Under the pieces are notes generated by a model. That model was not told where the DNA came from and searched no databases. It saw only the letters and a list, made by a program, of their open reading frames with translations. Of a DNA stretch of 36,705 nt, positions 6,677 to 32,825 are shown piece after piece. The DNA comes from Vulcanimicrobiia bacterium (GTDB lineage Bacteria > Vulcanimicrobiota > Vulcanimicrobiia > Eremiobacterales > Eremiobacteraceae): NCBI GenBank assembly GCA_025450855.1, contig JANWLL010000027.1, positions 1 to 36,705 on the forward strand, given 5' to 3'. The position numbers were made by a program, and so were the translations under genes. The first letter of the stretch is position 1; the number at the start of each line of letters is the position of its first letter.

Positions 6677-7729
6677 ATGAAAGCAGCTCGAATCGCCACC
6701 CTCGGGATCGTCGCGGCTCTCGCGGCATGCAGCGGCCAGAGCGACTCGCCGGCGACCGCCGGATCCTCCATGACGCTCGTCGGTGCGGGGTCGACCTTCG
6801 TGTATCCGTTCTTCTCGCGCGCATTCGACGCATATCAAAAAGCGAACCCCGGTGTGACCATCAACTATCAGTCGATCGGGTCGGGCGGCGGCATACAGCA
6901 GTTCACCGCACACACCGTCGACTTCGGCGCGACCGATGTGCCGATGAGCGCGAAGGATCTGTCGGCCATCGAAGGCGGTCGCAACTCGATCGTCGAGTTC
7001 CCGGTCGCACTCGGCGGCGTCGCCATCGCGTACGACGTCCCCGGCGCCGCGTCAGGTCTCGTCCTCTCGCCGGACGTGCTCGCGTCGATCTATCTCGGCA
7101 CGGTGAAGACTTGGAGCGACCCACGCATCGCGAGGCTCAACCGGTCCACCAAGCTCCCCGACCTCGCGATCGTCGTCGTCCATCGTGCTGACGCGAGCGG
7201 CACGACATTCATCTTCACCGACTACTTGAGCGCGGTGAGCGCCGGATGGAAAGCGCGCGTCGGCAAGTCGAAGACGGTCTCGTGGCCCGCACCGTCGTCG
7301 GTCGGCATGAAAGGCAACGAAGGCGTCGCGGGGCAGATCAAAAACACGCCCGGCGCGATCGGCTATGTCGAGCTCGCATACGCGCTCGAGACGGAGATGA
7401 CGTACGCTTCGATCGTCAACGCGAGCGGCGCGGTGGTCGCGCCGTCGATCGCGTCGGTGCGCGCCGCCGCCGCGACGAAGCCTGGGGTCGACCCGGTTGA
7501 CTTCTCGATCGTCAACGCGTCGGGAAAAGCCGCGTACCCGATCGCCGGCTACACGTGGGCGCTGCTGTACAAGCACTATCCCGACACGCCGAAGCAAGCC
7601 GCGCTTTGCGATCTCTTCCATTGGGTCGAGGCGGACGGACAAAAACTCGCAGTCGGCCTCGACTACGTCGATATACCGTCGGCGGTGAGCGCGCGCTCCG
7701 CGGCGGCTCTCGGCCCCTGCACGTTGTAA
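6677..7729 (+). CDS. Second PstS-like phosphate-binding lipoprotein
   Basis: Lipobox LAAC; GAGSTFVYPFFSRAF, YQSIGSGGGIQQF, DFGATDVPM, HRADASGTTFIFTDYL conserved with PstS1. Confidence 0.9.
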   Translation: MKAARIATLGIVAALAACSGQSDSPATAGSSMTLVGAGSTFVYPFFSRAFDAYQKANPGVTINYQSIGSGGGIQQFTAHTVDFGATDVPMSAKDLSAIEGGRNSIVEFPVALGGVAIAYDVPGAASGLVLSPDVLASIYLGTVKTWSDPRIARLNRSTKLPDLAIVVVHRADASGTTFIFTDYLSAVSAGWKARVGKSKTVSWPAPSSVGMKGNEGVAGQIKNTPGAIGYVELAYALETEMTYASIVNASGAVVAPSIASVRAAAATKPGVDPVDFSIVNASGKAAYPIAGYTWALLYKHYPDTPKQAALCDLFHWVEADGQKLAVGLDYVDIPSAVSARSAAALGPCTL

Positions 7730-7732
7730 TAG

Positions 7733-7749
7733 GCCGAGCGAAGCTCGGC
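7733..7749 (+). repeat. 7-bp hairpin directly after the pstS2 stop
   Basis: GCCGAGC-GAA-GCTCGGC; similar GCCGAG-CGAG-CTCGGC at 4035-4050 before pstC. Confidence 0.5.
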
Positions 7750-7774: not shown

Positions 7775-7897
7775 GCCGACGCGAGGGAGTCGCTCTTAGC
7801 GGGCGTTCTGAGGGCGCGAGAGCGCCCGAAGACAGCGGCGGAAGGCAAGTATTTCCCGATTCGCCGCGTGCCCGCGAGAGCGACTCCTCGCGTCGGC
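7775..7897 (+). ncRNA. Structured intergenic element copy 1 (candidate structured RNA or MITE-like element)
   Basis: P1 7775-7796/7877-7897; P2 GCGGGC/GCCCGC; P3 GGGCGC-GAGA-GCGCCC; P4 GCGGCG..CGCCGC; same conserved linkers and fold as copy 2. Confidence 0.6.
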
Positions 7898-7948: not shown

Positions 7949-8761
7949 ATGCCATCCGTCTCGGAGCGTCTGTTCGCCGCGTGCTGCAAGCTTTGCGCCG
8001 CGATCGTCGCTCTGATGCCAATAGTCGTCCTCACCTTGCTGGTGTGGGCGGCCATCACGCTGACGTTCGAGTCGAACGGACGGGGCGAGTTCTCCGGCTG
8101 GATCGCGGTGGCGGCGTCGACGATCGTCGTGAGCATCGTCGCCGCATCGTTCGGCAGCGCGCTCGGAGCCGGTGCGGCGTTCGCCGCTGAAGAGCTCGCC
8201 TCAACACCGGTCCGTCGGTCGATAGAAGGCGCGGTCGGCTTCTTCGGCGCCATCCCGTCGGTCGCGTTCGGCTGGCTCGCCGCGACCATCATCGTGCCGG
8301 CGGCTGCGGCGAATCCCTTGGGGTTCGTGACTCCCTACGCCGTGGCGGCGACCATCCTCGCGGTGATGACCGCGCCGACCGCATGCGCGCTCGTGATGCG
8401 AGGGCTTCGACGGGTGCCCGACTCCGTCCGACTCGCTTCAGCCGCAGCCGGTGCGACGAAGCTGCAGACGGCGACGCTCGTCGTCGTCCCGGCGCTGCGC
8501 CGCCGGATCGCAATCGCCGGACTGGCGGCGTTCGCTCGCTCGATCGGAGAAGCGACGGCGATGCAGGTTCTCTTCGTCGCGCTGGCACACGCGGGTGTTC
8601 GAGCGGTGCCGACGGCGGCCGCGATGGTCTTCTCGCGGCTCGCGCTCGGTCCGCCCGCTGCGGATCCATCCTATTATATAGCTGCGCTCGTGCTGCTTTG
8701 CGTCGCCGCGGCATGCGTCCTCGCCGTCGGACGCGAGGTAGGGGGACCCCAATGGGCATGA
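7949..8761 (+). CDS. Divergent PstC-like permease (EAA glutamate lost)
   Basis: Multi-TM; FFGAIPSVAFGWLA; VPDSVRLASAAAGATKLQTATLVVVP; ARSIGEATAM aligns with PstC GRAMGEAMAV. Confidence 0.8.
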   Translation: MPSVSERLFAACCKLCAAIVALMPIVVLTLLVWAAITLTFESNGRGEFSGWIAVAASTIVVSIVAASFGSALGAGAAFAAEELASTPVRRSIEGAVGFFGAIPSVAFGWLAATIIVPAAAANPLGFVTPYAVAATILAVMTAPTACALVMRGLRRVPDSVRLASAAAGATKLQTATLVVVPALRRRIAIAGLAAFARSIGEATAMQVLFVALAHAGVRAVPTAAAMVFSRLALGPPAADPSYYIAALVLLCVAAACVLAVGREVGGPQWA

Positions 8762-11790: not shown

Positions 11791-12951
11791 ATGGATTTCG
11801 CGACCAAGGCTATCCACGTCGGACAAGAAGCCGAGCCCGTCACGGGCGCGACGATCGTGCCGATCTTCCAGACCTCGACGTATACGCAGGCGTCGCCGGG
11901 CGTGCACAAGGGCTTCGACTACTCGCGCACGATCAACCCGACGCGCGTCGCGCTCGAGGCGTGCCTGGCATCGCTCGAGAACGCGCGCTTCGGCTCGGGC
12001 TTCGCGAGCGGTATGGCCGCGACGTCCGCCGTCATGAACCTGTTGTCGTCGGGCGACCATGCGGTCGTCACCGACGATCTCTACGGAGGCACCTTCAGGC
12101 TCTTCGACAAGGTCTTCGCGCGCTACGGCCTGACGTTCACGTACGTCGACGCGACCGATCCTCGCAACATCGAGCGCGCGATGAAGCCGTCGACCCGGAT
12201 GGTCTGGCTCGAGTCGCCGACGAACCCGCTGCTCAAGCTCGCCGACATCGGCGCGATCGCGGCGATCGCGCGCTCGCGCGGTGCGCTCACAGCGGTCGAC
12301 AACACCTTCGCGACGCCGTATCTGCAAAATCCGCTCGACCTCGGCGCCGACATCGTCGTCCACTCGACGACGAAGTACGTCGGCGGCCATTCCGACGCCG
12401 TCGGCGGATTCGCCGCGTGCAACGACAAGGCGATCCACGACGTCATCAAGTTCCACCAGAACGCGGTCGGCGGCGTGCCGGGTCCGTTCGACTGCTTCCT
12501 GACGCTGCGCGGGGTCAAGACGTTGGCGATCCGGATGCGCGAGCACGAGCACAACGCGCGTGCGCTCGTCGCGTTCCTCGATGGCCACGAAGGCGTCGAG
12601 CGGCTATACTATCCGGGGCTTCCGTCGCACCCGCAGCACGACCTCGCCAAGCGACAGATGCGCGGCTTCGGCGGCATGGTGTCGTTCGTGCTGCGCGGCG
12701 GATCTCAGCGCGCGCATGCATTCGCTTCGAAGACGAAGGTGTTCTCGCTCGCGGAAAGCCTCGGCGGCGTCGAGTCGCTCATCTGCCATCCGGCGAGCAT
12801 GACGCACGGATCGATTCCGAAAGAGGTCCGTGACGAGCGCGGCGTCACCGACGGGCTGTTGCGGTTATCGGTCGGCATCGAATCGCAGGCCGATATCATC
12901 GGCGACGTCGAGCAGGCCATCAACGCGACGCGAACGCTCGCCGTTATCTGA
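11791..12951 (+). CDS. Cystathionine gamma-lyase / gamma-synthase family PLP enzyme
   Basis: TSTYTQASPGVHKGFDYSRTINPTR; SGMAATSAVM; VDNTFATPYLQNPLDLGADIVVHSTTKYVGGHSD. Confidence 0.92.
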   Translation: MDFATKAIHVGQEAEPVTGATIVPIFQTSTYTQASPGVHKGFDYSRTINPTRVALEACLASLENARFGSGFASGMAATSAVMNLLSSGDHAVVTDDLYGGTFRLFDKVFARYGLTFTYVDATDPRNIERAMKPSTRMVWLESPTNPLLKLADIGAIAAIARSRGALTAVDNTFATPYLQNPLDLGADIVVHSTTKYVGGHSDAVGGFAACNDKAIHDVIKFHQNAVGGVPGPFDCFLTLRGVKTLAIRMREHEHNARALVAFLDGHEGVERLYYPGLPSHPQHDLAKRQMRGFGGMVSFVLRGGSQRAHAFASKTKVFSLAESLGGVESLICHPASMTHGSIPKEVRDERGVTDGLLRLSVGIESQADIIGDVEQAINATRTLAVI

Positions 12952-12961
12952 GGCGGATCTT

Positions 12962-12988
12962 AGGGAGCGGTCGAGATTTACCTCGACC
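12962..12988 (+). repeat. 27-nt hairpin repeat, copy 1
   Basis: AGGGAGCGGTCGAGATTTACCTCGACC; GGTCGAG/CTCGACC stem; 26/27 identical to 32799-32825. Confidence 0.7.
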
Positions 12989-13012: not shown

Positions 13013-13138
13013 CCGAGCTGCGAGGGTGTCGCTCCCGCGGGCACGCGGCGATTCGGGAAATACTTGCCTTCCGCCGCTGTCTTCAGCTGCTTTCGCCGCT
13101 TCAGAACGCCCGCTTAGAGCGACACCCTCGCAGCTCGG
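13013..13138 (-). ncRNA. Structured intergenic element copy 2 (opposite orientation)
   Basis: Perfect 22-bp outer stem 13013-13034/13117-13138; interior matches copy 1 (AGCGGGCGTTCTGA..GAAGACAGCGGCGGAAGGCAAGTATTTCCCGAATCGCCGCGTGCCCGC) with a GAAA-capped P3. Confidence 0.6.
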
Positions 13139-13174: not shown

Positions 13175-13501
13175 CTAGCTTGATCTGCGCCGCAACCGGT
13201 TCTCATGATACTCCTTAGGCCACTTCCGCCACGAAAGTATCTCGCGATTAGGCGATCTAAGCCTGACGATTTCGAACTGCGCACCGCGCTCGCGCATCAA
13301 TCGTCGAAAACGAGGGCCCTTCTTCTTGCCCCAAAGTCCGACGTAGTGATGGTCCTCGCCGTGGTCATAGAGAAGTACGTATCCGCCGAATTCCGCTGCC
13401 AGCTCGGCATAGCTGAAGAAGCGCTGGACGAACGGTTCAAGGCCATCGCAGAAGGTCTTACCATCCAATGTATATTCGTAGAGTGTGTTCGAAACCGTCA
13501 C
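13175..13501 (-). CDS. Small hypothetical protein, coupled to the IclR gene
   Basis: 108-aa ORF; GTG start overlaps the IclR stop (GTGA); lower GC than surroundings. Confidence 0.55.
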   Translation of the reverse strand: MTVSNTLYEYTLDGKTFCDGLEPFVQRFFSYAELAAEFGGYVLLYDHGEDHHYVGLWGKKKGPRFRRLMRERGAQFEIVRLRSPNREILSWRKWPKEYHENRLRRRSS

Positions 13502-14280
13502 AAGGATCGAGCGATCGCGCGCGCTTCGCGGGCGACCGCGTCCGCGATCCTTTCAAGGTTCGCGTCGTCGATGTGGCGCGCGAAGCCGGCGACCCAGACG
13601 ACGGCGGCTAACCTGCCGTCTTGTGCGACGACCGCCGCGGCCGCCGCGCGCATGCCATCGACGTACTCGTCGACGTCGAGCGCCACGCCGCGCCGCTCTG
13701 TTTCGTCCACGGCACGCGTGTATGCGCTCCGGTCGGTTACGGACTGTGGCGTGAATCGAGGAAGCTCGGTGTGCGCGATGAAGCGAGCGCGCCGGCGCGG
13801 TTCCCAAGCCGCCAAAACCGCCTTGCCGACGGCACCGGCGAGCAGTGGGATCGAGGATCCGACCGGTGCGGAGACAGCCATCGCCGGCCGGCCGTGCACC
13901 AGGTCGAGGATCGTCACGCTGTCCGTGCCGACAAGCCCGAGAAATGTGGTCTGCTCCGTCTCGGCGGCAAGTCGCTCGAGGTGCGGCCGCGCCGCCGATC
14001 GCACGTCTTGACGCGCGACCGAGCGCATCGCAAGAGCGGTCAAACCGCGTCCGATCCGGTAGCGCTTCGCGCCGTCCGCTGCCTCGATGGCGCCGACATC
14101 GTGGAGCGTCGTCACGAGTCCGTAGACGGTGCTCTTGCCCATCTCGAGGCGGCGCGCAAGCTCGGAAACGCCGAGCGGCTCCTGCGACTCGCTCAGGATA
14201 TCGAGCAACCGGAATGCCTTGAGCACGGCAGGCACTGAAGCGTTCGCCCGAGTGCGCCGGCCGTTCTCCAGCGTGAACAT
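13498..14280 (-). CDS. IclR family transcriptional regulator
   Basis: LKAFRLLDILSESQEPLGVSELARRLEMGKSTVYGLVTTL wHTH and IclR effector domain. Confidence 0.9.
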   Translation of the reverse strand: MFTLENGRRTRANASVPAVLKAFRLLDILSESQEPLGVSELARRLEMGKSTVYGLVTTLHDVGAIEAADGAKRYRIGRGLTALAMRSVARQDVRSAARPHLERLAAETEQTTFLGLVGTDSVTILDLVHGRPAMAVSAPVGSSIPLLAGAVGKAVLAAWEPRRRARFIAHTELPRFTPQSVTDRSAYTRAVDETERRGVALDVDEYVDGMRAAAAAVVAQDGRLAAVVWVAGFARHIDDANLERIADAVAREARAIARSL

Positions 14281-19242: not shown

Positions 19243-19326
19243 GCCGAAGTGGCGAAACTGGCAGACGCGCAAGTTTCAGGTATTTGTGTCCGAAAGGACG
19301 TGCAGGTTCGAGTCCTGTCTTCGGCA
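19243..19326 (+). tRNA. tRNA-Leu (CAG)
   Basis: GCCGAAG/CTTCGGC acceptor, CAAGT-TTCAGGT-ATTTG anticodon arm with CAG, long variable arm TCCGAAAGGA, TTCGAGT T-loop, discriminator A, no encoded CCA. Confidence 0.92.
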
Positions 19327-32798: not shown

Positions 32799-32825
32799 AG
32801 GGAGCGGTCGAGATTTATCTCGACC
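32799..32825 (+). repeat. 27-nt hairpin repeat, copy 2
   Basis: AGGGAGCGGTCGAGATTTATCTCGACC; one mismatch to 12962-12988. Confidence 0.7.

Follow-up and report, generated by a model that had tools for sequence, protein, structure and literature searches.

The stretch of DNA analyzed here, 36,705 nucleotides from a Vulcanimicrobiia bacterium (the window), carries a strongly folding element between pstS2, a phosphate-binding-protein-like gene (6677–7729, plus strand; Pfam PBP_like_2, 5.7e-42), and pstC2, a permease gene (7949–8761, plus strand; a coding-score gene call with a weak Pfam BPD_transp_1 match), and the locus raises the question of whether this element is a structured RNA or a mobile palindromic repeat. 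The first-pass annotation favored the former and named a MITE/REP-like element as the alternative. It placed two copies in the window, and the positions and strands of both proved correct: copy 1 occupies 7775–7897 on the plus strand, with pstC2 starting beyond its end, and copy 2 occupies 13138–13013 on the minus strand, between a plus-strand gene that ends at 12951 and a minus-strand gene at 13498–14235. Both are of type A and score 119.9 and 116.8 bits, respectively, in a covariance model of the element. The window contains exactly two occurrences of GGCGGAAGGCAAGTATTTCCCGA, where 0 were expected, and its sole Rfam match is a tRNA-Leu (CAG) at 19243–19326.

Folding of the two copies reproduces the architecture first proposed for them, with a long outer stem (P1), a second stem (P2), a GNRA-capped hairpin (P3), and a fourth hairpin (P4). 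On the plus strand of copy 1, the 5′ arm of P1 (7775–7795), which varies in sequence between copies, pairs with a predicted 3′ arm at 7878–7897; P2, supported by both fold and covariation, joins GCGGGC (7799–7804) to GCCCGC (7870–7875). P3 (GGGCGC-GAGA-GCGCCC, 7812–7827) is followed by P4 (7835–7867), whose arms, GCGGCG at 7835–7840 and CGCCGC at 7862–7867, enclose a 21-nt loop. Sequence and fold place the P3 of copy 2 (AGCGGC-GAAA-GCAGCT) at 13085–13100 on the minus strand. The folding energies are −89.3 kcal/mol for copy 1 and −87.4 kcal/mol for copy 2 (z of about −9.2 and −9.5), values that no shuffle reached; the reverse strand of the element folds too, slightly less well. The TCTGA before P3 and the GAAGA after it contribute three added pairs (TCT with AGA) plus a GA/GA step beside P3, which in an RNA could possibly form tandem sheared G–A pairs.

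The stems of this fold covary. In a MAFFT alignment of six copies from the window's own genome (G000; other G labels denote relatives and L labels loci), built without reference to structure, two-sided pair changes occur at 9 pairs, against 2.1 in shuffles. As first described, the outer stem changes in sequence between copies while its pairing is kept. Outward of the core, the arms of one copy pair with a mean score of 12.8, compared with 4.9 for arms taken from different copies; own arms thus pair far better than cross-copy arms, so that the outer stem keeps its pairing while being specific to each copy. The signal persists with more copies: in an alignment of 65, which was fitted to the structure and is biased towards it but agrees with the structure-free one, 92% of stem cells hold standard pairs, 32 of 34 pairs show two-sided change, two-sided cells number 322 against 83 when shuffled, and the covariation score is 0.425, compared with 0.120 for shuffled and about 0.04 for slid alignments. 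Of 71 aligned copies, 64 have a GNRA loop on P3. The linkers and P4 loop, described at first as nearly invariant, are so in the two window copies but not across the family, where only the UGA/GAA junction and the P3 GNRA cap are largely kept and the P4 loop is variable. Additionally, G–U mismatches outnumber A–C mismatches in the four main stems (37 versus 18) and overall (80 versus 28), and the named strand therefore seems to be the folding strand, a result that is suggestive only, as related copies are non-independent. Covariation alone is not proof of an RNA here, because correction templated by a DNA hairpin yields the same signal (PMC8794818).

The element belongs to a dispersed family. 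A BLAST search of its own genome returned seven good copies; a first covariance model, built from six, found 11 clear copies there; within the family-level group it also detected copies in eight further genomes, and it found none in the remaining relatives searched. The model rebuilt from 65 copies finds 98 copies in 10 of the 14 genomes of the window's family-level group, 29 of them in one genome; outside the family it returns a single weak match, which folds well, in another family of the same class. A search of Rfam at gathering and relaxed thresholds produced nothing credible for the element. The family is previously unlisted and is a new family of the palindromic-element kind. Diverged versions lie at L154:779–875 (in G081, a member of a different family within the class), with the loop GCAA, and at L153:1501–1619 (G009), with a longer P3 end, and these suggest that the element is old. 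Five stretches from a genome-wide scan for exact patterns (L067–L071) did not fit the model and are taken as chance matches. The copies are dispersed, either alone, as units of about 120 bp, or as divergent twins, as units of about 250–350 bp; many form divergent pairs 26–65 bp apart.

The placement of these units shows a marked bias with respect to genes. Based on a simple codon-score gene finder, whose gene positions are approximate and independent of curated annotation, 30 of 51 intergenic units lie between convergent genes, 19 between codirectional genes and 2 between divergent genes, compared with 18, 171, and 48, respectively, among 237 background gene pairs from the same stretches. This convergent excess and divergent scarcity indicate that the element sits behind genes and avoids promoters.

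A location behind genes is also what would be expected of a functional structured RNA, whether an mRNA 3′-end element, a terminator or attenuator, or a small RNA, that is selected in place and only secondarily dispersed. The strong covariation, the GNRA cap, the bias toward G–U over A–C, and the constraint on stems at orthologous loci (described below) all favor such a role. However, the orientation of the element to neighboring genes is variable and flips between species, some copies lie within coding sequence, bases left unpaired in orthologous copies drift about as fast as the flanks, and copy 1 has neither a U tract nor a terminator pattern. An intrinsic terminator at copy 1 was rejected directly, as no U run follows the stem. 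Furthermore, the copy between pstS2 and pstC2 is missing from the sister species: the first-pass annotation was right that it lies within this operon in G000, but G001 has no element at that site. We therefore consider it rather unlikely that the element is primarily a structured RNA; the covarying, GNRA-capped fold is real, but the preference for RNA is less well supported than the mobile alternative.

That alternative gains from the comparison of orthologous sites, in addition to the dispersal of the copies. At the pst site, 189 bp including copy 1 in G000 correspond to 15 bp in G001 between the same flanking genes, and at a second site 355 bp in G003 correspond to about 30 bp in G012; both comparisons are unpolarized. 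The stretch of about 175 bp that G001 lacks contains, along with copy 1, a small separate hairpin, GGCCGAGCGAAGCTCGGC, at 7732–7749 on the plus strand; the same hairpin also appears in L085, close to the copy 2 ortholog, and it is possibly a third repeat family. Five sites are common to G000 and G001, among them that of copy 2, whose ortholog occupies the same site in G001 (L085). At four pairs of orthologous sites the unit is reversed with respect to the flanking genes (L075/L088, L101/L112, L095/L113, and L091/L116), and a fifth reversed site holds a partly deleted remnant; either inversion or repeated insertion would produce this pattern. No fixed-sequence terminal repeats were seen, the outer arms differing between copies, and no clear target-site duplication was seen at the empty sites, whose divergence would obscure one. 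No autonomous partner or mobilizing gene was identified; at L121, where two divergent copies are separated by 2.1 kb, an autonomous element was considered and rejected, as the gene between the copies encodes an ordinary S15 peptidase.

The element also resides in frame inside genes. The ImuB proteins (Pfam IMS) of G003 and G012 contain it, one in each orientation, and that of G010 has a related insert, whereas those of G005 and G001 lack one at this position. Mfd of G013 is about 30 residues longer than that of G010 through an in-frame element, and a Wzy_C protein (a Wzy-type gene, L118) contains one as well. In two species, G004 and G011, the element lies at the junction of a protein in which MurF is fused to an F420-0:gamma-glutamyl ligase (CofE-like) domain (L123:2201–4453, minus strand; L125:1613–3832, plus strand). 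In G000, G001, G003, G005, and G012 the MurF frame is reported to contain a stop and the F420-ligase domain is matched separately, indicating that the element joins MurF and the ligase into one frame. Such in-frame residence is eased by the several open frames that most copies contain.

Taken with the empty pst site in the sister species and the reversals at orthologous sites, these in-frame copies lead us to conclude that the family is probably non-autonomous, mobile, palindromic (MITE-like) DNA, whose way of working is closest to that of the Rickettsia palindromic elements and ERIC, and whose conserved fold is unusually elaborate. One feature runs counter to this reading: the junction and the GNRA cap are conserved across genera, which is beyond the need of a dead mobile repeat.

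The history of resident copies bears on how the stems stay paired. We compared six orthologous copies (179 stem pairs) between G000 and G001, with the expectation taken from flank divergence, and found 8 one-sided changes where 33 were expected and 7 paired two-sided changes where 0.8 was expected, neither figure being reached in any of 5000 simulations; orthology is less certain for three of the six pairs, two of which derive from a reversed unit and the third from a site where the unit is rearranged. Unpaired positions differ at 16 of 175, which is about the flank rate. With few one-sided changes, many paired changes, and unpaired sites at the flank rate, stems change as pairs while loops drift. 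An insertion of the element into ready-made palindromes, which we also considered, is weakened by a compensatory A–T to C–G change in the outer stem at the orthologous loci L074/L086.

Paired change of this kind fits both selection on the fold and template switching between arms. The latter is a documented route to making and keeping perfect stems (PMC8794818), and template switching is also reported to homogenize arms and to invert the spacer (PMC8604942). Compensation could then be purely mutational, with the fold functionless in resident copies, a proposal that is compatible with mobility. In its favor, two-sided changes greatly outnumber one-sided standard-pair changes in most stems, in addition to the excess of paired changes and the flank-like divergence of unpaired sites between orthologs. 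It does not, however, account for the UGA/GAA junction, the GNRA loop, and a P2/P4 core that are alike between genera whose outer stems have been fully replaced, and we place it somewhat short of an even chance. The conservation of the P3 cap and junction across genera suggests that selection acts too, probably in active, spreading lineages. The family is also a warning case, as the covariation that is textbook evidence for calling an RNA is found here in an element that both moves and changes orientation, with stems that replication alone may keep matched.

For a mobile palindrome, the closest likeness is to the Rickettsia palindromic elements, which are about 100–150 bp long, multi-copy, and found both between genes and in frame in conserved protein genes (PMC2229807, PMC10969869). 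Our element is likewise a short, multi-copy palindrome with a stable hairpin, and it lies in frame in conserved genes whose orthologs lack it (ImuB, Mfd, and the MurF–CofE junction). The likeness described here is one of features, and the element differs in its internal three-way junction and GNRA cap, its divergent twins, its mainly convergent-gene sites, its high-GC hosts, and its lack of an Rfam match. ERIC and Yersinia palindromic sequences, of about 127 bp, lie in transcribed intergenic regions, take part in some in-frame gene fusions, and form RNA hairpins that alter mRNA decay (PMC2229807, PMC10969869). Compared by description, ERIC shares palindrome size, intergenic sites, and in-frame gene fusion with the element; however, ERIC is a simple hairpin whereas the element is multi-branched, with an outer stem that is not conserved in sequence. 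The Caulobacter CIR repeats, about 110 bp long, intergenic, and composed of two arms and a linker, are similar in approximate size and setting but expose GANTC in their loop and do not occur inside genes (PMC2229807), whereas copies of the element do, and its loop is GNRA. Nor is the element a MITE in the strict sense, as it shows no fixed terminal repeats shared with an autonomous transposon. Palindromes that invade genes in frame are familiar chiefly from Rickettsia (PMC10969869). The present high-GC group adds dozens of copies, occupied and empty sites in sister species, and an element-made gene fusion, and it provides a natural test of the spread of such elements and of their effects on proteins.

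As a mobile palindromic element, the unit may work as follows. A hairpin of about 120 bp with an internal three-way junction, in which P1 and P2 close P3 with its GNRA cap and P4, would fold on a single-stranded nucleic acid (ssDNA or RNA) in the named strand and be recognized by a recombinase or a replication-coupled process. The stems of resident copies would stay paired because hairpin-templated replication repeatedly rewrites the arms from each other, with selection assisting wherever the hairpin brings a benefit. In transcripts, the stem probably behaves as REP and ERIC hairpins do in mRNAs, with 3′ ends protected or processed, and copy 1 could by analogy separate the expression of pstS2 from that of pstC2. 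In E. coli, the malE–malF REP lies between a binding-protein gene and a permease gene and stabilizes the upstream message, and copy 1, between genes of the same two kinds, recalls it. Any such effect on the pst operon would be local, as the sister species has no copy there. A more ambitious version, in which the fold itself is what acts in a novel type of mobile element that uses a three-way-junction ssDNA or RNA and machinery other than Y1 or reverse transcriptase, inserts behind genes, flips in place, tolerates in-frame residence, and sometimes fuses neighboring proteins, we regard as distinctly unlikely.

Two known kinds of machinery were weighed. REPs resemble the element in forming hairpins at gene 3′ ends and inverted pairs, and it might be a REP/BIME moved by the RAYT (Y1) transposases of its hosts: Y1_Tnp genes are present in 10 of the 14 genomes, and small REP-like hairpins adjoin several copies. 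However, REPs are simple hairpins, short at 14–40 nt in E. coli (PMC12306157), and the RAYT genes examined (G000, G001, and G010) are bracketed by short GTAG/GGAG hairpins of their own, with no significant match to our model in their flanks. These GTAG-type hairpins flanking the Y1 genes are separate from the element, which shows no RAYT link in the flanks examined and which we therefore do not class as a REP/BIME. As G004, G011, and G013 also carry the element and have no Y1_Tnp match, we find RAYT-driven movement very improbable. A retron-type msr–msd repeat would agree with the closed outer stem and with a TTAGC near the start of copy 1, but TTAGC is not kept in other copies, and RVT_1 was matched in 0 of the 14 genomes while controls were detected; we give scarcely any credence to this identity, which is refuted as far as RVT_1 can detect.

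Several other hairpins accompany the family. REP-like hairpins of the form GGTCGAGATTTA(C/T)CTCGACC lie at 12969–12988 and 32806–32825 of the window, and hairpins of the GGTCGAGATTTA type, preceded by GGAG or GTAG, bracket both Y1/RAYT genes in this genome (L141 and L151) and adjoin several element copies. In the genus of G003 and G012, the unit combines the type A hairpin with a type B hairpin on the opposite strand, which is longer and of a different kind; the type B half (L093–L113) carries a long outer stem of its own, is purine-rich inside, and is missed by the model. Just outside the unit at G003 and G012 loci (L095, L098, L101, L105, and others), hairpins of the form GGGCCGA(N)TCGGCCC followed by CTTC recur, which are either a terminator or a separate repeat.
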